A DNA stretch of 41,297 nucleotides from an uncultured bacterium (GTDB lineage Bacteria > Acidobacteriota > Thermoanaerobaculia > Multivoradales > J023): positions 1 to 41,297 of the forward strand of contig CALFAM010000191.1 in the NCBI GenBank assembly GCA_937948815.1, given 5' to 3'. The position numbers were made by a program, and so were the translations under genes. The notes below the pieces were generated by a model. That model searched no databases. It was not told where the DNA came from and worked only from the letters and a program-made list of their open reading frames with translations. Positions 5,925 through 38,869 of this stretch are shown piece by piece (the stretch's first letter is position 1; every line of letters starts with the position of its first letter).

Positions 5925-6001
5925 TGGTAGGCGCTAGCGGACTCGAACCGCTGACCTCTACCGTGTGAAGGTAGCGCTCTAACCAGCTGAGCTAAGCGCC
6001 T
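5925..6001 (-). tRNA. tRNA-Val (anticodon CAC)
   Basis: A 77-nt cloverleaf with encoded CCA. The acceptor arm AGGCGCT pairs with AGCGCCT, and the D stem is GCTC/GAGC. The anticodon stem CTACC/GGTAG carries loop TTCACAC, and the T stem AGCGG/CCGCT carries loop TTCGAGT. Loop positions 34-36 read CAC, decoding GUG valine codons. It is second of a tRNA-Val pair, 41 nt after tRNA-Val(GAC). Confidence 0.96.
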
Positions 6002-6042
6002 GAACGTCTCGAAATACGCGCTCTCGGTGGGGAGTGGGGCGA

Positions 6043-6119
6043 TGGTAGGCCCGAGCGGACTCGAACCGCTGACCTCTACGATGTCAACGTAGCGCTCTAA
6101 CCAGCTGAGCTACGGGCCT
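6043..6119 (-). tRNA. tRNA-Val (anticodon GAC)
   Basis: A 77-nt cloverleaf with encoded CCA. The acceptor arm AGGCCCG pairs with CGGGCCT, and the anticodon stem CTACG/CGTAG carries loop TTGACAT, giving anticodon GAC (codons GUC and GUU). The D and T arms are almost identical to those of the neighbouring tRNA-Val(CAC), suggesting duplication and anticodon divergence. A promoter lies about 75 nt upstream. Confidence 0.96.
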
Positions 6120-17882: not shown

Positions 17883-19052
17883 CTACCTCGACTCGCTTTG
17901 TGCGGCCGGCCCGAGGAGAAGGCCGGCATATCTGCGCGCTTCGTCATGCGTGGCATCGAGCTTGAGCGCACGTTCGAGATGATGCAGGGCGCGGTCCTTG
18001 TCCCCGACCGCGAGAAAGATCTTGACCAGTCCGATGTGAACCTCGGGCAGCTCCGTGTCCTGTTTGAGCGCCCTGCGCATGTACGACAGAGCCGTCTCTG
18101 TATCTCCCGAGGCCAGCGCGAGCTCGCCGCGATAGACATAGAAGAAGGGGTTGGCGAGCTCGAGCGATTCGATGCGCCCGAGCAGCGCGCCAGCCTCATC
18201 GTGGTTTCCAAGCTGCTGCTGCGCCCGCACCTGGTTGGTGAGGAGATGCACGCTCTCGGGATGGAACTCGAGCGACTCTGCGAGAAGGTCTGCCGCCTCT
18301 TGCGGCCGACCGAGGCGCAACAGGCTTACCGCAAGATTGTTGACCGCCTTGTCGAAGCCCGGTTCGAGGTCGACCGCGATGCCGGCAAGCTCATAGGCTT
18401 GATCCACGTTGCCGGCAAGCAGGGATTCAGCGGCCAGGTTGTTGAAGTAGTGGGCGGCGGCCCGCACGTCATCGATCGCCTTGAAATCGCGGTAGCTCTT
18501 GGCACGGTAGGGCAGGAAATCGTAGGTCGCGAGGTTGCCATCTACCCGCATGCCGGCAACGATGTGCCCATGGCTGACGACCATGCCCTCACGGAAACTC
18601 CAACGGTTGTAGTCTCGGACCTCCACGTAGAAGGGGTTGAGACGCTTCTCTCGCGCAACGCCAACGAAGAGATTGACGAAGGACAGGCAGTTGCCCTCCC
18701 CCGCATGGAAGGTCTCGACCGCGTCTCGGGTCGGTGTCAGGCTGTACTGCAGATCGAGGTAGCTGAAAACGAACTCGAGAACCTGATTCGCCCGAACAGG
18801 CTCCGCGGCACCGACGGTAACGCGCCCCTCGATCGCCTCGCGAACCGCATCGTCGATCTGAAACGGCACTTCGAGGCCCACGGCTCGGTCGGCGCCCAGC
18901 CGCTGCTGATACTGATCGCGAACGAAACTCACGGAATCGAACGTGCCGGCCAGCGGCGTATTCTGCGAGGCGCATCCGGAGAGCACCAGTGCGAGGCAGG
19001 CCGCGATCGGTCCACGCCAGCCGCGCGCGCTTCGAGGCCGGCGCAAGCCCAC
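17883..19052 (-). CDS. Lipoprotein with transglutaminase-like domain and TPR repeats
   Basis: A GTG start at 19052 gives a 389-aa lipoprotein: a basic n-region, a hydrophobic stretch and lipobox LVLSGC with Cys27. The frame is open to an ATG at 19322, but those 90 residues have no recognisable content and would bury the lipobox. No strong Shine-Dalgarno supports the GTG, so the start is uncertain. Residues about 60-200 look like a transglutaminase-like papain fold. Candidate triad residues are Cys122 (GEGNCLSFVNLF), His161 or His163 (SHGHIV) and Asp178 (ATYDFLPY). TPRs follow (about 200-380). Such proteins may process or bind peptides at the envelope. It is the promoter-proximal gene of the operon that continues with three VWFA genes. 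Confidence 0.8.
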   Translation of the reverse strand: MGLRRPRSARGWRGPIAACLALVLSGCASQNTPLAGTFDSVSFVRDQYQQRLGADRAVGLEVPFQIDDAVREAIEGRVTVGAAEPVRANQVLEFVFSYLDLQYSLTPTRDAVETFHAGEGNCLSFVNLFVGVAREKRLNPFYVEVRDYNRWSFREGMVVSHGHIVAGMRVDGNLATYDFLPYRAKSYRDFKAIDDVRAAAHYFNNLAAESLLAGNVDQAYELAGIAVDLEPGFDKAVNNLAVSLLRLGRPQEAADLLAESLEFHPESVHLLTNQVRAQQQLGNHDEAGALLGRIESLELANPFFYVYRGELALASGDTETALSYMRRALKQDTELPEVHIGLVKIFLAVGDKDRALHHLERALKLDATHDEARRYAGLLLGPAAQSESR

Positions 19053-19312
19053 GCTGCGAGATGCTGATGGCGGTTGCTCACCCTCGAAGTGACTGTCGAA
19101 TTGACCGCTTTCTATAGGCGCACGCGTCGACGCCTGCGGGCCAAGGGCCATGACCGTGGCCTGCAACGCGGCTGGAAGTCGGTCAGGAGACGTGCTCGAA
19201 GCCGAGACAGACGCCGCTGCGTTACGGGGCTCTACAGGGATGGCTGACGCCCGTCGGGCGTGGCCAGGAGTACCACGAAACCAGACCAGATGATGCAAGA
19301 GCATAGGCAAAA

Positions 19313-19318
19313 ATCGTA
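19313..19318 (-). promoter_or_regulatory. Weak candidate extended -10 box for the lipoprotein-VWFA operon
   Basis: The minus strand reads TGCTACGAT, an extended -10 pattern (TG-N-TACGAT) without a good -35 box. A start site near 19306 would place the upstream ATG at 19322 outside the transcript, consistent with a downstream start such as GTG 19052. This is weak evidence on its own. Confidence 0.25.
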
Positions 19319-19451
19319 GCACACGCCCCTCGTGCGAACTGCCGGTTCGAGGCGCCTAGCAGGCACCTGGCCCCACACGGATACCGTCCAACTGCAGGCG
19401 CTGCTCAGACGCCCTCAGGGGCCCTTGGAGAGCCTCGACCACCTCGCATTC

Positions 19452-19489: not shown

Positions 19490-19596
19490 GGACCTCGACG
19501 TCCGCACAACTCTCCATGCTTCTGCCCGTAAAATGAAGCGTAGAAAAATACTTATCCGGAAACGCGCCATGCGCGGAAAGATGGCAAGCCTCTTGC

Positions 19597-19625
19597 TTGA
19601 CTCGTTCTGCGGTAGTCGCTAGACT
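19597..19625 (+). promoter_or_regulatory. Near-consensus promoter for the TonB-dependent receptor gene
   Basis: A -35 box TTGACT (19597-19602) and a -10 box TAGACT (19620-19625) are separated by exactly 17 bp. The predicted start is near 19632, giving a leader of about 167 nt. An A/T-rich patch at about 19533-19556 lies further upstream. This is the best sigma70-type promoter seen on the plus strand. Confidence 0.75.
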
Positions 19626-19627
19626 TC

Positions 19628-19767
19628 GCGTCCATTCGTCTCAAAGCGCTGGGACTTGCAGGATCCGTGCGGATCCAATGCGAATGGACGCTGGTGAGCC
19701 ACGGCGCCCAGCCAGAGGTTTGCCCCCAGCGCCTACCAACCGCAAGTCATTCAACGTCGAATGACTT
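19628..19767 (+). promoter_or_regulatory. Structured 5' leader of the TonB receptor mRNA
   Basis: Three sets of perfect inverted repeats occupy the leader. Arm A, GCGTCCATTCG (19628-19638), pairs with CGAATGGACGC (19681-19691). Arm B, GCGCTGGG (19646-19653), pairs with CCCAGCGC (19725-19732). Hairpin C, AAGTCATTC (19744-19752), pairs with GAATGACTT (19759-19767). A and B are interleaved, so they form either a pseudoknot or mutually exclusive folds. C ends about 20 nt before the Shine-Dalgarno. Arm A starts at about the predicted transcription start, so a DNA operator around +1 is an alternative reading. I match no known riboswitch class. Confidence 0.5.
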
Positions 19768-19798
19768 CAGCACACCCTGAGCCACGAGGAGGAACAGA

Positions 19799-22750
19799 GT
19801 GACAAATCGTCTAACCCTTATGCGGCGCATTGCAGTCGTCGCCGCAGCCATTGCCCTAGTGGGCACGGGTGCCGTGTTTGCGCAGCAGCAAACCGGTAAC
19901 CTGTATGGCAACGCCACCGATAACACCGGTGCAGCGCTGCCTGGCGTTACGGTCAACCTGACCGGCATCGGCGCGCCGAAGCTCGCCATCACCAACGCGG
20001 AAGGCCAGTTTCGCTTCCTGAGCTTGGACCCGGGTAACTACGCCCTGTCCGCTTCGCTCGACGGCTTCTCGACCGTCGAGTACCCGAACGTGAATCTCCG
20101 CGTCGGCCGCAACACGTCGATCGAAATGACCCTGACCCCCGCGCTCGAGGAGACCATCACGGTCACCGCCGAGTCGCCGCTGCTCGATGAGCGCAAGATC
20201 TCCAAGGGCACCACGATCTCCCAGATCGAGCTCGAGAAGATTCCGACCGCCCGTGACCCCTGGGCCATCGTGACCCAGACCCCGGGTGTGCTCTCCGACC
20301 GCATCAACGTCGGTGGTAACGAGTCCGGCCAGCAGGCCAACTTCATTGCCCCGGGTACCAGCGGTGACGAGAACAGCTTCGCCGTCGATGGTGTGAACAT
20401 CACCGACATGGCCGCCGTTGGCGCGTCCCCGACCTACTACGACTTCGACCAGTTCGCCGAGATGCAGATCACGACGGGTGGATCGGACATCACCAAGGTG
20501 GCGGCCGGTACGTCGCTCAACCTGGTGACCAAGCGTGGTTCCAACACGCCGCGCGGTTCGGCCCGCTTCCTGCTTACCGACAGCGATGAGCAGTTCGGCC
20601 TCTTCGAGCAGGGTAGCGTCGACATCAGCGACGACCTTCTCCCCGCGCAGCCGTCCGGCACCAACCCCGGCAACTCGGTCAACGAGATCATCGATTTCGG
20701 TGCCGAGGCTGGCGGTCCGGTCAAGAAAGATCAGGTGTGGTTCTGGGGCTCCTACGGCCGCAACGACATCATGAACTTCACCAACCTCGGACAGGCTGAC
20801 AACACCCTTCTCGAGAACACCGCCCTCAAGATCAACGCCCAGCTCGGCTCGCCGAACTCGCTGGTCGGCTCTTGGAACCGCGGTGACAAGATCAAGAATG
20901 GTCGTCAGTCCAACGCCTTCACCACCGGGCCCGCTGCCTGGAATCAAGCCGGCCCGACCGAGGTGTTCAAGATCGAAGACACGCACGTCTTCAACTCGAA
21001 CTTCTACCTCACGGGTCTCTTCTCGTACGTCGATGGCGGCTTCGGCCTGACCTCGATCGGTGGCGCGTTCGGCGACGAAACGGCACCGGAACCGGTTCGC
21101 GGCACGGATGGCTTCTGGCAGAACAGCTTCTACAGTGGCATCTCCGACCGCAACACCGACCAGTTCCAGGTCGACGGCAACTACTTCTTCAACTCGGGTG
21201 CGATCAACCACGAGCTGAAGTTCGGTGCTTCCTTGCGCAAGTTCGAGACGCTCAGCACGTTCGGCTGGCCGGGTCGCAACTTCGCCACCCTGACCTGCGA
21301 GGCCACCGGTCTCTGCGGCGCAGGCTTCACCTTCGGTGACGACCTCGTGGTCGCCACTCGCTCGGGTATCGCCCCGACCGAGCAGGAGTACGTCGCGTTC
21401 TTCGCCCAGGACACCCTTTCCAAGGGCAACTGGACCCTGAACGTCGGCCTCCGTGTCGATGACCAGAGCGGTGAGAACCCGGCTGGTGGTGCGCCGGCCA
21501 GCCCGGCCTTCGCCGGCACGCTGCCGGCCTTCAACTTCGCCGGTAACGATGCTGGCTTCGACTGGACCACGATCTCGCCTCGCATCGGCTACACGTACGC
21601 CCTCGGCGCCGAGCGCAAGACGCTGCTTCGTGCCAGCTACGCGCGTTTCGCCGAGCAGCTCTCGTCGGGCAACATCAGCCGGATCAACCCGGTTGCCAAC
21701 GCCACGGCGACGTTCACCTTTGGTGACCTCAACAACAACGACACCTTCGATGTCGGCGAGCCCACGTCGCTCCTCGGCTTCAGTGGTTTCGATCCCAACA
21801 ACCCGACCTCGCTCTCCACGCCGAACCTGAACGATCCAGGCCTCGACCCGTCGATCACCGACGAGCTCGTGCTTGCCGTCGAGCATGCGTTCCTGCCGGA
21901 GTTCGTGGTCAGCATCGAGGGTACCTACCGTCTGACGTCGGACCTCATCGAGACCCGTGAGCTGATCGACGACGGTTCGGGTGTGCGCGTTGCGACCCGC
22001 AACGACTACATCTCGAACGGTGTGTTCAGCGGCATCATCCCGGGCACCAACACGCCCTACTCGGCCGAGCTCTTCGGCCTCCGCCCGGGTGAGCGTACCG
22101 GTGGTTCGCTGCTCACCAACGGTGACAGCGAAGTCGAGTACTTCGGTGTTTCGCTTACCGCGACCAAGCGTCTGGCCAACCGCTGGATGCTCCGTGGCTT
22201 CATCAACTTCGGTGAGGGTGAGCACAACTTCGGTAGCGAGTCCTTCATCTTCGACAACCCGGGTCTCGCCCCGGATGGTTCCGACACCTCCGGCCAGGTC
22301 TTCCTGGAGCAGGCTGCTGGTTCCGGTCCGTTCGGTGACGTCCTGATTCAGTCGAGCTGGTCGGCCAACCTCAACGGCCTCTACCAGGTCGCGCCGGACA
22401 AGCCCTGGGGCTTCAACGTGTCGGCCAACCTGTATGCCCGCGAGGGTTACCCGCTGCCGTACACGTTCAACACCCGGACGTCTGACGGTGTCAGCCGGAC
22501 GGTGCGTGCGTTCAACGACACGGAGCTGTTCCGCGTCGATGACATCTTCACCGCCGACTTCCGCATCGAGAAGGACATCCCGTTCAGCTCCAACCTGAGC
22601 GGTACCCTCTCCCTCGACGCGTTCAACGTCTTCAACGAGAACTACTTGCTCCAGCGCGATCGCTCGCTGGAGGCGCCGACCGCGAACTTCCTTACGCAGT
22701 CGCTGTCGCCGCGTATCTTCCGCCTCGGGTTCCGCCTGAGCTTCCGGTAG
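19799..22750 (+). CDS. TonB-dependent receptor, Oar-like, with N-terminal carboxypeptidase-regulatory-like domain
   Basis: A 983-aa outer-membrane protein. The GTG start at 19799 has a strong GAGGAGG Shine-Dalgarno ending about 6 nt before it and begins a signal peptide (MRRIAVVAAAIALVGTGAVFAQ). Residues about 32-112 form a CarboxypepD_reg-like beta-sandwich (GNLYGNATDNTGAALPGVTVNL...AEGQFRFLSLDPGNYALSAS). A TonB-box-like segment (ETITVTAESPLL), the plug (about 125-260) and a long beta-barrel follow, ending RLGFRLSFR. Such Oar/SusC-related receptors import or bind large substrates using TonB energy; the ligand is not predictable. The gene appears enriched in GGT, CGT and C-ending codons relative to its neighbours, suggesting strong expression. 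It has its own promoter and terminator, so it is probably monocistronic. Confidence 0.93.
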   Translation: MTNRLTLMRRIAVVAAAIALVGTGAVFAQQQTGNLYGNATDNTGAALPGVTVNLTGIGAPKLAITNAEGQFRFLSLDPGNYALSASLDGFSTVEYPNVNLRVGRNTSIEMTLTPALEETITVTAESPLLDERKISKGTTISQIELEKIPTARDPWAIVTQTPGVLSDRINVGGNESGQQANFIAPGTSGDENSFAVDGVNITDMAAVGASPTYYDFDQFAEMQITTGGSDITKVAAGTSLNLVTKRGSNTPRGSARFLLTDSDEQFGLFEQGSVDISDDLLPAQPSGTNPGNSVNEIIDFGAEAGGPVKKDQVWFWGSYGRNDIMNFTNLGQADNTLLENTALKINAQLGSPNSLVGSWNRGDKIKNGRQSNAFTTGPAAWNQAGPTEVFKIEDTHVFNSNFYLTGLFSYVDGGFGLTSIGGAFGDETAPEPVRGTDGFWQNSFYSGISDRNTDQFQVDGNYFFNSGAINHELKFGASLRKFETLSTFGWPGRNFATLTCEATGLCGAGFTFGDDLVVATRSGIAPTEQEYVAFFAQDTLSKGNWTLNVGLRVDDQSGENPAGGAPASPAFAGTLPAFNFAGNDAGFDWTTISPRIGYTYALGAERKTLLRASYARFAEQLSSGNISRINPVANATATFTFGDLNNNDTFDVGEPTSLLGFSGFDPNNPTSLSTPNLNDPGLDPSITDELVLAVEHAFLPEFVVSIEGTYRLTSDLIETRELIDDGSGVRVATRNDYISNGVFSGIIPGTNTPYSAELFGLRPGERTGGSLLTNGDSEVEYFGVSLTATKRLANRWMLRGFINFGEGEHNFGSESFIFDNPGLAPDGSDTSGQVFLEQAAGSGPFGDVLIQSSWSANLNGLYQVAPDKPWGFNVSANLYAREGYPLPYTFNTRTSDGVSRTVRAFNDTELFRVDDIFTADFRIEKDIPFSSNLSGTLSLDAFNVFNENYLLQRDRSLEAPTANFLTQSLSPRIFRLGFRLSFR

Positions 22751-24287: not shown

Positions 24288-26492
24288 GTGAAGAAACACC
24301 AGCGCCTACGCGCAGCCCCTTTAGCGCTTCTCGCCTCCGCGTCTCTGCTCGCCGCCTGCGATCGCCAGGCGTCCGCTCCGGAAGAACACCGCAACGGCTC
24401 GACTCGCCCGGAAAGCACGGTAGCTTCTCACCAGCCCAGCAGCGCTTCGTCCGGGCACGAAGCCCCCGATCGCCCGCGGGACGACCTCGTGCTCGAGCCG
24501 GTCGCGATCCGCGATCTGCTCCTGATCACGGTCGATACCCTGCGAGCCGATGCCCTCGGATTCGCGGGCGAAGCGCGTGTCAGCACCCCGACACTCGACC
24601 GCCTGGCGGCCACGGGCTGGGTCTTCGATAACGCGCACGCGCACAATGTGGTGACCTTGCCGTCCCACGCCAACATCCTGACCGGCCGCTACCCGTACCA
24701 GCATGGGATTCGCGACAACATCGGCTTCGTGCTCGATGACTCGATTCCCACCGCCGCGACGATCCTCAGCGAGGCAGGATTCGCAACCGGCGCCGTGATT
24801 GCCGCCTACCCGCTCGACGCCCGCTTCGGTCTCGCGCGCGGCTTCGACGTCTATGACGATCAGCTCCCCACCAGCCAGGGGGCGGTCCGCTTCGCATCCA
24901 CTGAACGAGCCGGAGATCAGGTCGTCGCGCGTGGCCTCGAGTGGTGGCGCAAGCACGCAGGCGAGCGACGCTTTCTGTGGCTTCACCTCTTCGAGCCTCA
25001 TGCGCCCTACGCGCCCCCCGAGCCCTATGCTTCCCAGTTCGCGAGCGAGCCCTACCTGGGCGAAGTTGCGGCTACCGACGCCTACCTACGCCCCCTTCTG
25101 ACTCCGTTCCTCGAGGGCAACGAGACCCCGACCCTGATTGCCTTTACCTCGGACCACGGCGAGTCACTCGGCGAGCACGGCGAGCGGACCCACGGTCTCT
25201 TCGCCTACGAGGCCACGCTCAAGGTTCCGCTGGTGCTCTGGGCCCCCGGCCTCGAGCCTGGTCGCTCCTCGGCACCGGCACGGCACATCGACCTGCTCCC
25301 TACCCTGCTCGACGCCGTGGGTGTCCCCGCCCCTGCCGATCTTCCTGGCCGCTCGCTGCTGGCCCCGACCGATCCCGCGGCCACCACCTACTTCGAGTCG
25401 CTGACCGCGACACTCAATCGTGGTTGGGCCCCGCTGCGCGGCGTCATCGATCAAGGCGAGAAGCTCATCGAGCTACCCTTGATGGAGCTTTATCAGCTTC
25501 CCGACGATCCTCAGGAGCTCGACAATCTGGCCGACCAGCAGCGGCGCCGTGTGCACGCCCTGCGCGCCCAGCTCCCGGTGGAGTCCGTGTGGCCGCCGCC
25601 ACGCACGGCCGCGAGCAGCAGCGCCGAGCGCGCCGCGCTGCGCAGCCTGGGCTACATCTCCGGGAACGCTGCCAGCAAGACCACCTACACCGCCGCAGAC
25701 GACCCCAAGAACCTCCTCGCGGTGGATAACGCCATCTATCGCTTCATCGACCTCTTCCAGCTCGGCCGCCTCACCGAGGCCACGGCCGTGGCACGTGAAG
25801 TGGTGCAGGCGCAGCCCACCATGGCGATCGGCCACGAGCACCTCGGCCAGGTGCTCCTCGAACAGGGCCAGGTCGCCCAGGCAGTCGAGGCCATGGAGCA
25901 GGCCGTGGCGATCGATGCCGCCAGCCCCCCGCTGATTCGCCAGCTCGCGCTCTCGTATATCGAGCAGGGACGCGGTGACGACGCGATTCAAATCATTGAA
26001 TCGCGTGCGGAGAGCACGGATCCCGAAGACCTCAACACCCTTGGTTTCGTGCTTGCGGAGGGCGGTCGCCTCGACCAGGCGACTGCCGCGCTCACCCGCA
26101 GCCTTTCTCATGATCCGACCAATCCAGAGGCGCACCAGAATCTTGCCCTGGTCGCTCTTTACCGCCAGGACTGGATCGAAGCAGAGAACCAGGCATCCCG
26201 CGCCCTCGAGCAAGCTCCGGCCCTGAATCACGCCTGGAACTATCTGGGCGTCGCGAACGCCAACCTCGGCCGCCCGCGCCGCGCGCTGGAGGCTTGGGAA
26301 CGCGCATCGGCGCTGGTACCCCAGGACTTCGATCTGCTCTACAACATTGCCATCGTCTCCCTGCAAACCGGGGATCGCTCTCGGGCCGCAGGCGCACTTC
26401 GTCGTTTCATCGAGGGCGCCCCACCAGAGCGCTACGCCCCGGACATCACCAAGGCTCGCGGCATGCTGAGACAGCTAGAGGAATCTCCATGA
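24288..26492 (+). CDS. Lipoprotein with sulfatase-fold hydrolase/transferase domain (Thr nucleophile) and TPRs
   Basis: A 734-aa protein. The GTG start at 24288 is supported by GGGGAG about 9 nt upstream and a lipoprotein signal with lipobox LLAAC (Cys24). Residues about 75-440 form an alkaline-phosphatase/sulfatase-superfamily domain. Visible features are a metal Asp in TVDTLRAD (D83), SDHGESLGEHG (D289, H290) and a downstream THG His. At the nucleophile position, where sulfatases have C/S-x-P-x-R, the sequence is TLPSHANILTG with Thr123 and His in place of Arg. The enzyme therefore cannot be a formylglycine sulfatase and may be a phosphatase or phospho-group transferase. About seven TPRs follow (480-730). 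The stop overlaps the next gene start (ATGA), indicating coupling. Confidence 0.87.
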   Translation: MKKHQRLRAAPLALLASASLLAACDRQASAPEEHRNGSTRPESTVASHQPSSASSGHEAPDRPRDDLVLEPVAIRDLLLITVDTLRADALGFAGEARVSTPTLDRLAATGWVFDNAHAHNVVTLPSHANILTGRYPYQHGIRDNIGFVLDDSIPTAATILSEAGFATGAVIAAYPLDARFGLARGFDVYDDQLPTSQGAVRFASTERAGDQVVARGLEWWRKHAGERRFLWLHLFEPHAPYAPPEPYASQFASEPYLGEVAATDAYLRPLLTPFLEGNETPTLIAFTSDHGESLGEHGERTHGLFAYEATLKVPLVLWAPGLEPGRSSAPARHIDLLPTLLDAVGVPAPADLPGRSLLAPTDPAATTYFESLTATLNRGWAPLRGVIDQGEKLIELPLMELYQLPDDPQELDNLADQQRRRVHALRAQLPVESVWPPPRTAASSSAERAALRSLGYISGNAASKTTYTAADDPKNLLAVDNAIYRFIDLFQLGRLTEATAVAREVVQAQPTMAIGHEHLGQVLLEQGQVAQAVEAMEQAVAIDAASPPLIRQLALSYIEQGRGDDAIQIIESRAESTDPEDLNTLGFVLAEGGRLDQATAALTRSLSHDPTNPEAHQNLALVALYRQDWIEAENQASRALEQAPALNHAWNYLGVANANLGRPRRALEAWERASALVPQDFDLLYNIAIVSLQTGDRSRAAGALRRFIEGAPPERYAPDITKARGMLRQLEESP

Positions 26493-34064: not shown

Positions 34065-36482
34065 ATGAGCGCCACCATGCATCGTCGCCGTGTTTGGATC
34101 GCCGCGTCCGCTCTCGGCCTCGCGATCGTGGGACCGAGCCTCGTCTGGTCACAGACCATGAAAGGTGCGGTGGCCGATGAGACGCCTGCGGTCGCGAGTG
34201 TCCGGATCCCGACGAAAACCGAGACGCGTGAAGAGATGCTGGCCATCTGCGACGGCTTGCGAACAGGCGAGAACGTCGTCTTCGGCCAATCCATGGTCGA
34301 GGAGCTGTACGCGGAGCTCGATGCGGCACGCGCCAGCCGCCAGCCAGATCTCGCCGTTCGCGCGGTCGGCTTCCTGAGCATTCACCTGATCCGTCTCAAT
34401 CGTCTGCAGGAAGCGATCGATCTCCTGGAACCGGCTCGGCGCCTGGCCGATATGCGCTTTTCGTCCGAAACGCTCCTGCGGCGCCGACTGGCGGCGTTTC
34501 TGGCCTCGGCACACCTGCAGCTCGCCGAGGACGAGAACTGCATCGATCATCACGCTGCGCGCAGCTGCATCTTGCCGATTCACCCTTCGGCGGTTCATCG
34601 CCGCACCGAGCATGGGCGGAGCGCCCTCTCGCTGTACCGCGAGTTGGTCGATGGTCAGCCGAACGATCTCAACAGCCGATGGCTGCTCAACATCACCAGC
34701 ATGCTGCTCGGGGCCTACCCGGCCGCCGTCCCCGAAGCCGCCCGTTTGCCCGCGAGCTACCTGGCGGACGACCCGACCTGGCCCACCCCTTGGCAGAATG
34801 TCGCGTCCGGACTAGGCCTCGATCCCATCGACCTCGCCGGTGGTGTGGTCACGGACGACTTCGACGGTGATGGTTTGATCGACGTGATCACCTCGTCGTG
34901 GGATCTGTGCGCTCCGATGAAGGCGTGGCGCAATACGGGTCGCGGATTTGTCGACACCACCGCGGAATGGAGCTTGGATGGCCAGCTCGGCGGCCTCAAT
35001 CTGCTCCAGGGAGACATTGACGGCGACGGCGACCTCGACCTCCTCTCGCTGCGGGGCGCCTGGCTCGGGGTCGATGGGAAGATTCGCAACTCGCTGCTGC
35101 GCAACGACATCGCAGAAGGCCACGGTTTCGTCGACATCACGGCCGCGGCCGGCATCGCAGAACCTGCCTACCCGACCCTGACGGCAGGCTTTGCCGACTT
35201 CGATCTGGATGGTGATCTGGATCTCTACATCGGCAACGAAGCTGCATCGAGAAGCGACAACCCGTTCTCATTCGTCACCGCGAGCGGCGTGCCCTATCCT
35301 TCGCAACTCTTCCGCAACGACGGCCGCGACGACCGAGGTGTCGTTCGCTTCACGGACATCGCCACCGCAGCCGGTGTCACCAACGACAGGCTGGCCAAGG
35401 GCGTTGCATGGGGCGATGCCGACAACGACGGCGATCTGGACCTCTACGTATCCAACTTCGACCACAATCGCCTCTACCGTAACAACGGCCGCAATGCCGA
35501 AGGGCAGGTGACCTTCACGGACATCGCCGCGGATGCGGGCGTCACCCAGCCGGCCAACATGAGCTTTGGTACGTGGTTCTTCGACGCTGACAACGACAGT
35601 GACCTCGATCTCTTCGTGGTGGACTACGCCAACCGCGACGCCAAGGTGTTCGCCGGCTACTTCGGACTTCCGGTACAAGGTGGCAACCCGATCCTCTACC
35701 GCAACGAGGGACCTGGGGCGAACGGCAATCCGCGCTTCGTCGATAGCTCGGCCGATTGGGGCTTGCGCCAGCCACTGCTGCCCATGGGCGCGAATTTCGG
35801 CGACCTCGACAACGACGGCTGGCTCGACGTCTACCTGGGAACGGGCTCGCCCTTCTTCGACGCCATCATGCCCAACGTGATGTATCGAAACGAGGGCGGC
35901 CAAGGCTTTCGGGACGTCACGATTCCAGGCGGCTTCGGACACCTGCAGAAGGGGCACGGTATCGCCTTCGCCGACCTCGACAACGATGGCGACCAGGACA
36001 TCTACGCGCAGACGGGCGGTGCCTTCCCCTACGACGCCTACAGCAATGTGGTGTACGAGAACCCAGGGTCGCCGCGTTCTTGGATCACCCTTCGCCTCGA
36101 GGGCACCACGTCCAACCGCAGCAGCTTCGGCGCGCGCATCGCCGTCGATGTCGTGGAAGAAGACGGCACGAAGCGCAGCATTCACCGAGCGGTCGGTAGC
36201 GGCGGCTCGTTCGGTGCATCGAGCCTGCAGCAGGAAATTGGTCTCGGCAGCGCTACCCAGATCCCACAGCTGACGATTCGCTGGCCGAGCGGACAAACGA
36301 GCCATTTCCAGGACCTCGCCCTCAACCAGATCTACCGCGTGGTCGAGGGTGCCGACACGGTCGAGCCCTTGGACGTGCCCACCTTCGCGCTCGGCGCACC
36401 CGTGGACCGGGCCGTACCCTCCGGGCACCATGACCATGCGCCCCACTCGGCCGCCCACGGGCAAGGCGCACAGAACCGGTGA
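34065..36482 (+). CDS. Secreted CRTAC1-family protein with N-terminal helical Cys/His domain (copy A)
   Basis: An 805-aa protein with a signal peptide (VWIAASALGLAIVGPSLVWSQ). Residues about 50-225 are helical and TPR-like. They contain AHLQLAEDENC-x8-CILP (C159, C168) followed by H-x-R-T-E-H (H178, H183) and SRWLLNI. From about residue 255 there are FG-GAP/VCBS propeller repeats with calcium-loop motifs (DFDGDGLIDV, DIDGDGDLDL, DLDGDLDLY, DNDGDLDLY, DNDSDLDLF, DNDGWLDVY). The ASPIC/UnbV domain follows (SWITLRLEGT...GARIAVDV...GSGGSFGASSLQQEIGLG). The tail is His-rich (SGHHDHAPHSAAHG). Its stop overlaps the start of the next gene (GTGA), so the two are translated as a coupled pair. The biochemical role is unknown. 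Confidence 0.88.
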   Translation: MSATMHRRRVWIAASALGLAIVGPSLVWSQTMKGAVADETPAVASVRIPTKTETREEMLAICDGLRTGENVVFGQSMVEELYAELDAARASRQPDLAVRAVGFLSIHLIRLNRLQEAIDLLEPARRLADMRFSSETLLRRRLAAFLASAHLQLAEDENCIDHHAARSCILPIHPSAVHRRTEHGRSALSLYRELVDGQPNDLNSRWLLNITSMLLGAYPAAVPEAARLPASYLADDPTWPTPWQNVASGLGLDPIDLAGGVVTDDFDGDGLIDVITSSWDLCAPMKAWRNTGRGFVDTTAEWSLDGQLGGLNLLQGDIDGDGDLDLLSLRGAWLGVDGKIRNSLLRNDIAEGHGFVDITAAAGIAEPAYPTLTAGFADFDLDGDLDLYIGNEAASRSDNPFSFVTASGVPYPSQLFRNDGRDDRGVVRFTDIATAAGVTNDRLAKGVAWGDADNDGDLDLYVSNFDHNRLYRNNGRNAEGQVTFTDIAADAGVTQPANMSFGTWFFDADNDSDLDLFVVDYANRDAKVFAGYFGLPVQGGNPILYRNEGPGANGNPRFVDSSADWGLRQPLLPMGANFGDLDNDGWLDVYLGTGSPFFDAIMPNVMYRNEGGQGFRDVTIPGGFGHLQKGHGIAFADLDNDGDQDIYAQTGGAFPYDAYSNVVYENPGSPRSWITLRLEGTTSNRSSFGARIAVDVVEEDGTKRSIHRAVGSGGSFGASSLQQEIGLGSATQIPQLTIRWPSGQTSHFQDLALNQIYRVVEGADTVEPLDVPTFALGAPVDRAVPSGHHDHAPHSAAHGQGAQNR

Positions 36483-38869
36483 GCCGAGCGATCCAGCTCC
36501 GCGCCTTCCTGTTCGCGATCCTCGCCGTGGCCACCGGTTTCGTCGCCGGACCTGCCACCGCGCAGTTCGAGTCGACCTGCAGGCGCCTGACCGAGGGGGA
36601 TAACGCCTACTTCGGCCACGCAATCATCCCCCGGCTCGAAGAGCGTCTCCGCGCCGCTGAACAGGCTGCGACACCCGATACCGAGGCGATCGTCCGCCTG
36701 CGCGCCTGGCTCGCGACCGAGCTCGGTCGCCTCGGCCGGCAAGGCGAGGCCCTCACGCTTCTCACGCGGGCCCGGGAAGCGGCCGAGCGCGCGCTCCCCG
36801 ACGACTGGCCGCTGCTCCCGGCCCTGCTCGGCAGTGAGGCGCTCGCCCACCTTCAGCTCGCGGAGGAAGAGAATTGCGCGGCCAGCCCGAATCCGGACCG
36901 CTGCATCCTGCCGCTCACCGACGCCGCACGGCATCAGCGAACCGAGCACACCCGCGCTGCCATCGCACGCTTCGACCGCGTGCTGACGCTGACGCCGGGC
37001 GATGTCCAGAACCGATGGCTTCGCACCGTCGCCGAAACACTGATCGGCGACCCGAACGGCCGCGGGCTCCCGCCGAGCGCGCTCGGGCCCGCACCCGGCC
37101 TCGCACGTTGGCAGAACCTTGCTGACGGCCTCGGTATCAGCGGCTCGGATCACGCGGGTGGCGCGATCGTCGACGACTTCGATGCCGACGGGCATCTCGA
37201 TTTGATCAGCTCTTCCTGGCACCCCTGTGCACCCCTGCGTGCCTACCGCAACGACGGCCAGGGCGGATTCCAGGACGTGGCCAAAGCCTGGGGGCTCGAC
37301 CAGCAGCTCGGCGGGCTGAACATCGTCCACGCTGACTACGATGGCGACGGCCAGCTCGACCTGCTGGTGCTGCGCGGCGCCTGGCTGGGCGCCGAGGGCA
37401 AGATACGCAACTCGCTGCTGCGCAACGATCTGGCAAAGACCGGGCGATTCGTCGACGTCACCGCCCAAGCTGGCCTGGCGGTTCCGGCCTATCCCACACA
37501 GGCCGCTGCCTGGGGAGACATCGACAACGACGGCGACCTCGATCTCTACATTGGCAACGAGGCGGCAGCGTCGTCCGTCGATCCACGCAACCTCTTTGGC
37601 ATGGGTGGCCAGACCTTTCCGTCCCAGCTCCTGCGCAATGATGGCGGCCGCTTCACCGACATTGCGCGTGCTGCGGGCGTCACCAACGACCGCTTTGCCA
37701 AGGGCGTCACCTGGGGCGATGTCGACAACGACGGTGATCTCGACCTCTTCGTGTCGAACATCGGCGTCAATCGGCTCTATCGCAATGACGGCCCCGCAGT
37801 CGGCACCGGCCCACGCGGCATCCCGCGCTTTGTAGACATTGCCGCCACGGCAGGCGTTGCCGAGCCTTCGCGCGAGAGCTTCGCCACCTGGTTCTTCGAC
37901 GTCGACAACGACGGCGATCTCGATCTCTTCGTCGCCGACTACTCCAGCCCCGTTTCAGCAGTCTCCGCGTCGTACCTGGACCTGACCGAGCCGCCTCGCG
38001 ACGGGTCGTCTTCCGATGGATCCTCTTCCGGCACCGGCCATCCGGTCCTCTATCGCAACGACACCCCGCGCCAGCGCACGGTCAATGGCGAGTTGATCAG
38101 CAGTTCGATTCGATTCACCGACGTTTCGGCCGACTGGGGTCTCGACCGCCCGCTGCTGCCCATGGGCGCCAATTTCGGCGACCTCGACAACGACGGCTGG
38201 CTGGACATCTACCTGGGTACCGGCCTGCCCAATCCCCAGGCATGGATGCCGAACGTGATGTACCGGAACGTCGAGGGTCAGCGCTACGAGGACGTGACCA
38301 GCGCAGGCTTCGGCCACCTCCAGAAGGGCCACGGTATCGCCTTTGGCGACATCGATCGCGATGGCGACCAAGACCTCTTTCAGCAGCTCGGTGGCGCCTA
38401 TCCTTACGATGCTTTCGCCAACGTGCTCTACGAGAATCCGAGCCTCACGCCACCCGCAGCCACGGAAGACGCAGGCGACGGCGATTCGCCTCCCGACCCG
38501 GGTTCCGCCTGGGTAACCCTGCGCCTGCGCGGCGCACGGGCGAATCCGTTCGCCATTGGCGCCCGGATCACCATCGTCGTACGGGGGCCTGACGATCGTA
38601 CGCGCCAGATTCATGCCGTCGTCGGCAGCGGCGGCTCCTTCGGCGGCTCCAGCATGCAGCAAGAGCTGGGCCTGGGGGATGCCGTTTCCATCGACTCCCT
38701 GTCGGTTCGCTGGCCCTCGTCCGCAGCACCCTTCGTGGCCCGCGACCTGGCACCGCGCAAGGTCTACGAGATTCGTGAGAAGGACGCCTCACTGGTCACC
38801 GTCGAAGCCCCGCCCGTCCCACTGCGGCCTGGCCAGGCTTCCCACAATCACGCCGGATCGGTACGATAG
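36479..38869 (+). CDS. Secreted CRTAC1-family protein with N-terminal helical Cys/His domain (copy B)
   Basis: A 796-aa tandem paralogue of the preceding gene. The GTG start at 36479 overlaps the upstream TGA and begins a good signal peptide (LRAFLFAILAVATGFVAGPATAQ). The N-terminal helical domain keeps the motif AHLQLAEEENC-x8-CILP (C133, C142) and H-x-R-T-E-H (H152, H157). Propeller repeats follow (DFDADGHLDL, DYDGDGQLDL, DIDNDGDLDLY, DVDNDGDLDLF twice, DLDNDGWLDIY, DIDRDGDQDLF). A Ser-rich insert (about residues 505-520) and an acidic insert (about 660-680) are absent from copy A. It ends with ASPIC/UnbV (GSGGSFGGSSMQQELGLG) and a short tail ASHNHAGSVR. A TPR gene follows after 42 nt, probably in the same operon. 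Confidence 0.88.
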   Translation: MSRAIQLRAFLFAILAVATGFVAGPATAQFESTCRRLTEGDNAYFGHAIIPRLEERLRAAEQAATPDTEAIVRLRAWLATELGRLGRQGEALTLLTRAREAAERALPDDWPLLPALLGSEALAHLQLAEEENCAASPNPDRCILPLTDAARHQRTEHTRAAIARFDRVLTLTPGDVQNRWLRTVAETLIGDPNGRGLPPSALGPAPGLARWQNLADGLGISGSDHAGGAIVDDFDADGHLDLISSSWHPCAPLRAYRNDGQGGFQDVAKAWGLDQQLGGLNIVHADYDGDGQLDLLVLRGAWLGAEGKIRNSLLRNDLAKTGRFVDVTAQAGLAVPAYPTQAAAWGDIDNDGDLDLYIGNEAAASSVDPRNLFGMGGQTFPSQLLRNDGGRFTDIARAAGVTNDRFAKGVTWGDVDNDGDLDLFVSNIGVNRLYRNDGPAVGTGPRGIPRFVDIAATAGVAEPSRESFATWFFDVDNDGDLDLFVADYSSPVSAVSASYLDLTEPPRDGSSSDGSSSGTGHPVLYRNDTPRQRTVNGELISSSIRFTDVSADWGLDRPLLPMGANFGDLDNDGWLDIYLGTGLPNPQAWMPNVMYRNVEGQRYEDVTSAGFGHLQKGHGIAFGDIDRDGDQDLFQQLGGAYPYDAFANVLYENPSLTPPAATEDAGDGDSPPDPGSAWVTLRLRGARANPFAIGARITIVVRGPDDRTRQIHAVVGSGGSFGGSSMQQELGLGDAVSIDSLSVRWPSSAAPFVARDLAPRKVYEIREKDASLVTVEAPPVPLRPGQASHNHAGSVR

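Follow-up and report, generated by a model that had tools for sequence, protein, structure and literature searches.

The window analyzed here, a stretch of 41,297 nucleotides, is one contig of an assembly that is about 82% complete; gene content suggests that its phylum is Acidobacteriota. The window carries a gene for a TonB-receptor-like outer-membrane protein (Table 1), after which come TPR and sulfatase genes. We took the GTG at position 19799 as the receptor start codon. Because the neighbouring upstream gene (17883-19322) is divergent from the receptor gene, the segment 19323-19798 is intergenic. Elsewhere in the window, a tRNA-Val pair (CAC and GAC anticodons, 5925-6119) adjoins a threonyl-tRNA-synthetase-like gene, and positions 34065-38869 encode two neighbouring FG-GAP/UnbV_ASPIC proteins and then a TPR protein, with two sulfatase-TPR fusions upstream. 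Residues 114-230 of the receptor (the plug region) also have a counterpart of about 77-80% identity in a long open frame (L062:1006-3999, on G000:C85) straight after a sigma-factor-like gene (L062:302-1009). This counterpart is flanked by an anti-sigma-like start and an extended C-terminal part, and is apparently a receptor fragment within a putative anti-sigma protein.

Table 1 Features of the receptor gene and its upstream region, in window coordinates
Feature	Position	Strand	Remarks
Enhancer-like inverted repeat TTCAAATCGTTGAA	19449..19462	+	TTCA-N6-TGAA, core CAA-N4-TTG; candidate activator (bEBP) site
Degenerate second copy ACCAAATCATTGAA	19471..19484	+	two mismatches to TTCA-N6-TGAA
Sigma-54-type -24/-12 element TGGCAAGCCTCTTGCT	19582..19597	+	predicted start ~19608; recurs in homologous receptors and in the window receptor's own paralogue C59
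Sigma-70-like promoter TTGACT-17-TAGACT	19597..19625	+	predicted start ~19631-19632; composite recurs
Stem A, 5' arm GCGTCCATTCG	19628..19638	+	
Stem B, 5' arm GCGCTGGG	19646..19653	+	
Nested inverted repeat GGATCCG-TG-CGGATCC	19661..19676	+	in the A loop; pair probability 0.86
Stem A, 3' arm CGAATGGACGC	19681..19691	+	
Stem B, 3' arm CCCAGCGC	19725..19732	+	
Hairpin C	19744..19767	+	9 bp, 6-nt loop AACGTC; member of a recurrent pre-Shine-Dalgarno hairpin class
Shine-Dalgarno AGGAGG	19787..19792	+	from the sequence
TonB-receptor-like outer-membrane protein	19799..22750	+	983 aa; CarboxypepD_reg and OMP_b-brl_4 beta-barrel

An earlier note on this DNA had described two perfect stems of 11 and 8 bp in the order A-B-A'-B' and a third perfect 9-bp hairpin ahead of the Shine-Dalgarno, and had judged three perfect stems in 140 nt improbable by chance. 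When the repeat coordinates were checked, stems A and B proved to be exactly as described, with the arms of A 42 nt apart, and the third hairpin is C, with perfect arms at 19744-19752 and 19759-19767. In 3000 dinucleotide-preserving shuffles of the 140 nt from 19628 to 19767, a stem of at least 11 bp arose in 0.17% and a hairpin of at least 9 bp in 0.37%. Three stems of at least 8 bp were never obtained (0/3000), nor was an 11-bp stem interleaved with a stem of at least 8 bp (0/3000; 0.03% for the 191-nt leader), in agreement with the earlier judgement, although these figures overstate genome-wide rarity because the region was picked for its repeats. The leader (19628-19802) was also more stably folded than its shuffled counterparts (z = -3.9). 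The repeat nested in the loop of A has perfect 7-nt arms (19661-19667 and 19670-19676), of which the innermost pair is unable to form, and its mean pair probability held in all isoforms.

A sigma-54-type promoter and its candidate activator site

The -24/-12 element upstream of the repeats matched 10 of 11 consensus positions, including the -24 GG/-12 GC spacing and the TGGCA/TTGC consensus. The region resembles sigma-54 (RpoN) promoters with upstream activator sites in the GG/GC pair, 10-bp gap and TGGCA-N6-TTGC consensus of the element, and in the inverted-repeat sites that lie 80-180 bp upstream in pairs spaced by about two helical turns. Comparison with the leader of the nearest paralogue showed TGGCAAG-N4-TTGCT to be common to both. 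With a threshold of 9 of 11 consensus positions and the GG and GC fixed, an element of this type was found in 43/49 homologous receptor leaders, mostly 77-273 nt from the start codon. A stricter threshold retained it in 65% of the near receptors and 26% of the more distant ones, compared to 3.75% of intergenic control genes, the controls being the output of a simple GC-based gene finder and the receptor start codons being picked automatically. RpoN was found in 19 of the 20 genomes searched, a congener included, and was missing only from the window's own ~82%-complete assembly.

Since the start predicted by the -24/-12 element lies upstream of every repeat, the leader is probably transcribed. 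The placement of the repeats in the receptor leader by the earlier note therefore stands for all three when the message starts at this site, but not in full for the overlapping sigma-70-like promoter, whose predicted start falls inside the 5' arm of A and would cut it. Sequence comparison thus indicates that the receptor mRNA probably comes from a sigma-54-dependent promoter with a distant activator site, an arrangement common to many receptors of the group. No report of sigma-54 control of TonB receptors in this phylum was found in the literature searched, which was mostly non-subscription. In the comparative sigma-54 surveys consulted, the phylum and such receptors go unmentioned, and one survey notes only TonB (COG0810) in Flavobacteriia.

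A direct repeat (D2) upstream of the promoter led to the motif TTCA-N6-TGAA. The candidate activator site in the window lies 133 bp upstream of the -24 element, and its degenerate second copy follows 22 bp downstream, on the same helix face. Exact copies of the motif were present in 14/70 sigma-54-type receptor promoters, with about 0.06 expected from shuffles, and none of the 70 had the exact TTCA/TGAA half-sites at gaps of 3-5 or 7-9. Allowing one mismatch, the motif was found in 58/70 promoters, where shuffles gave 2.5, and in 7% of control upstream regions; it was retained in 50/62 after reduction to dissimilar promoters and was present in 4/39 receptors lacking a sigma-54 element. The motif was derived from the same sequences in which it was counted, but an artefact is unlikely given the results at other gaps and in receptors without the sigma-54 element. 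The sites clustered at -180 to -80 relative to the promoter and paired sites were mostly 17-24 bp apart, as expected of activator sites on one helix face. Across 396 genomes of the phylum, the exact enhancer-plus-promoter pattern gave 53 matches compared to 8 for the reversed pattern, which weakly supports the pairing; many of the matches listed look AT-rich. The window holds a second exact TTCA-N6-TGAA, TTCAAATCATTGAA, at 25987-26000. It lies within the first of the sulfatase genes, some 300 bp ahead of the next sulfatase frame, and has no exact sigma-54 element downstream.

The segment CAAATCGTTG within the enhancer-like site fits CAA-N(3-5)-TTG, the recognition site of NtrX in Brucella abortus and Sinorhizobium meliloti (PMC9223101). 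The most frequent core of window-type enhancers is CAA-N4-TTG; they differ from the NtrX site in that the outer TT/AA is also strongly conserved and in their fixed spacing and enhancer distance. The activator of the candidate sites may thus possibly be NtrX-like.

A positioned hairpin ahead of the Shine-Dalgarno

The 3' end of hairpin C lies 32 nt before the start codon and 19 nt before the Shine-Dalgarno, and its predicted pair probability was at least 0.91 in both isoforms. Averaged over 38 dissimilar leaders, excess hairpin stability peaked between -62 and -26 from the start codon. In the first receptor set this 36-nt segment was more stable than shuffles by -3.19 +/- 0.69 kcal/mol, and an independent set of 54 more distant receptors showed the same peak (-2.58 +/- 0.42 kcal/mol), the positions being scanned over a limited range. 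A strong pre-Shine-Dalgarno hairpin was present in 51% of near and 52% of far sigma-54-type receptors compared to 10% of 80 intergenic controls (Mann-Whitney p 8e-8 and 1.6e-4, respectively), and in 22% of far receptors without the sigma-54 element. Perfect Watson-Crick hairpins of at least 7 bp at this position were only modestly enriched (14% and 22%, against 6%). The 3' ends of the class had a median of -31 (quartiles -34 to -28), and C belongs to this class, which we define by a sigma-54 element followed by a stable hairpin with its 3' end some 31 nt ahead of the start codon.

The earlier note had proposed a covariation analysis of homologous leaders, and for the pre-Shine-Dalgarno hairpin this was informative in the genus g7 (21 genomes), where the receptor is orthologous and the leader can be aligned, giving 18 distinct leaders. 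The g7 helix was 95.8% paired, and three of its pairs were double-changed, in 9 cells altogether. This number was reached by 0/500 shuffles, which related sequences can exceed without any structure, and by no slid version of the helix, a control that keeps relatedness and also fell well below. The helix contained 36 G-U cells but 1 A-C cell, which favours an RNA on the mRNA strand. Covariation thus supports an RNA hairpin at the pre-Shine-Dalgarno position, as judged in g7 orthologues whose leader does not align with hairpin C of the window. Across families, folding gave the forward strand no advantage over its reverse complement, so outside g7 the inverted repeat might instead be one that acts at the DNA level. 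Of the other g7 leader elements, the 5' hairpin (P1) was too invariant and the P2 apical stem too poorly aligned for covariation. Several g7 leaders, among them L010, L017 and L024, hold a Shine-Dalgarno-like GGGAGG in the 5' arm of the pre-Shine-Dalgarno helix. The complementary CCTCC/CTCTCC in the 3' arm might instead pair with the true Shine-Dalgarno, which may amount to an on/off arrangement in g7.

The strongest competing explanation is that hairpin C and its relatives are generic mRNA-stabilizing or insulating hairpins with no regulatory role, and that A and B are incidental to a GC-rich leader. The position anchored to the start codon, the unrelated hairpin sequences that vary from gene to gene and the lack of an apparent conserved loop sequence among the class hairpins listed would all fit such elements. 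The enrichment is, however, specific to sigma-54-type leaders, and chance would rarely place both A and B in this stretch. We consider this explanation possible but clearly the less probable one. Among the RNA parts of the leader, hairpin C is the one that comparison supports, as a recurrent feature of such leaders. Structure upstream of the Shine-Dalgarno can strongly change initiation in designed 5' UTRs (PMC3936740). Hairpin C resembles the hairpins of that work in lying directly upstream of the Shine-Dalgarno with a short single-stranded spacer, but differs in belonging to a natural gene family whose members carry such a hairpin repeatedly at one set distance.

Putative overlapping promoters and the predicted pairing of stems A and B

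The sigma-70-like promoter that overlaps the sigma-54-type element forms a composite arrangement seen in 9/34 leaders, including that of the window, from four families of the order, with the -35 directly after the TTGC and the -10 16-18 bp further on. This second promoter is probably also able to start the message. The -35 hexamer starts at the last base of the -12 element in the window (19597-19625) and in leaders L009, L013, L015, L018, L021, L023, L025 and L079.

Promoter choice might in principle set the fold of the leader, with a long sigma-54 RNA forming A and a short sigma-70 RNA forming B, thereby altering access to the ribosome-binding site. ViennaRNA pair probabilities for RNAs ending at 19798 agreed with such a swap: starts at 19600-19610 gave A at about 0.9 and B at about 0, and starts at 19631-19638 gave A at 0 and B at 0.68-0.97, with predicted Shine-Dalgarno accessibility of 0.68 in the long and 0.42 in the short form. 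The recurrence of the composite promoter would also be in keeping with it. The swap depended on the 3' end, however, as B reached only 0.35-0.44 for starts at 19632-19638 when the RNA ended at 19830, and both starts are themselves predictions. Shuffled 5' extensions altered as many pairs in 23/100 trials, and promoter-dependent refolding was rejected as a special property of this leader because it was indistinguishable from chance. The other composite-promoter leaders showed neither a consistent excess nor a consistent direction of change in Shine-Dalgarno accessibility. We regard a promoter-choice switch as improbable.

Slightly less probable still is that A and C act in the DNA, as inverted-repeat operators bound by a repressor or an activator, and not as RNA structures. 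The sigma-70-like start falls at the 5' arm of A, the arms of A are 53 bp apart (about five helical turns) and the equal folding of both strands across families would suit a DNA element, but the 6.5-Mb assembly has only three further copies of the A arm, the C-type hairpins are anchored to the start codon and not to the promoter and vary in sequence between genes, and G-U pairs replace Watson-Crick pairs in the g7 helix.

The A-B-A'-B' arm order recalls H-type pseudoknots and switching riboswitches, and the interleaved complementary arms of A and B have the form of an H-type pseudoknot; the leader differs from these in having no conserved core and no Rfam match. The earlier note had suggested that A and B allow a pseudoknot or a switch between two folds, a suggestion that gained no comparative support. 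A DNA search of 99 relatives found only short, chance-like matches to the leader, and the nearest paralogue (C59, 77% identity over the N-terminus) has a different leader that lacks both stems. Protein searches in the order and class, and of genome contigs, turned up full-length receptors of at most about 55% identity and no leader that could be aligned over A and B. The Infernal/Rfam comparison that had been proposed returned no family: Rfam matched only the two tRNAs in the window and nothing in 20 homologous loci, and the best match of the leader scored 14.5 bits against a cutoff of 50. Short reading frames of up to 37 codons occur in the leader, with no convincing Shine-Dalgarno. The complementarity of A and B is real, and any function of it putative.

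Least probable is a ligand-sensing riboswitch or protein-binding leader that uses A and B as a pseudoknot or alternative folds, since, although the arm order is real and beyond chance and forcing B in the long RNA costs only 3.0 kcal/mol relative to the minimum (-75.1 compared to -78.1), the conservation, paralogue and Rfam comparisons gave no hint of ligand sensing and do not support a riboswitch.

A proposed route to receptor expression

We favor, with moderate confidence, a sigma-54-driven leader of about 190 nt with an upstream activator and with hairpin C as its functional RNA part as the best explanation of the locus. Sequence comparison shows the promoter element, the enhancer motif and the hairpin at its position; the identity of the activator, the start sites and the role of the hairpin we infer. 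The TTCA-N6-TGAA sites some 100-130 bp upstream would be bound by an enhancer-binding activator, possibly an NtrX-like one, and the activated sigma-54 polymerase would then transcribe the structured leader, with the overlapping sigma-70-type promoter probably starting the message too. Hairpin C would form a stable stem-loop anchored some 30 nt ahead of the start codon, where the ribosome-binding region begins. There it would most likely separate the Shine-Dalgarno segment from the variable structure upstream, and it may also stabilize the message or form a standby boundary for ribosomes. Stems A and B would be lineage-specific, mutually exclusive pairings.

TonB-dependent receptors determine nutrient uptake by Gram-negative bacteria. 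Nothing on how the many receptor copies of this little-studied group are controlled was found in the literature searched. Each part described here (promoter, enhancer and hairpin) is of a known kind. Taken to its full extent, the proposal would describe an order-wide and perhaps phylum-wide receptor regulon, in which one NtrX-like activator and sigma-54 drive the TonB-receptor genes, some lineages add an overlapping housekeeping promoter, each gene has a dedicated pre-Shine-Dalgarno hairpin, and here promoter choice also switches the leader between two folds; as a whole, this is speculative and we think it unlikely to hold in every part. The findings move attention from the A/B pseudoknot to the promoter and hairpin C. 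A hairpin anchored to the start codon would constitute a defined translation element, and a shared sigma-54 promoter with a single enhancer motif upstream of most receptors tested would make the regulon directly testable.
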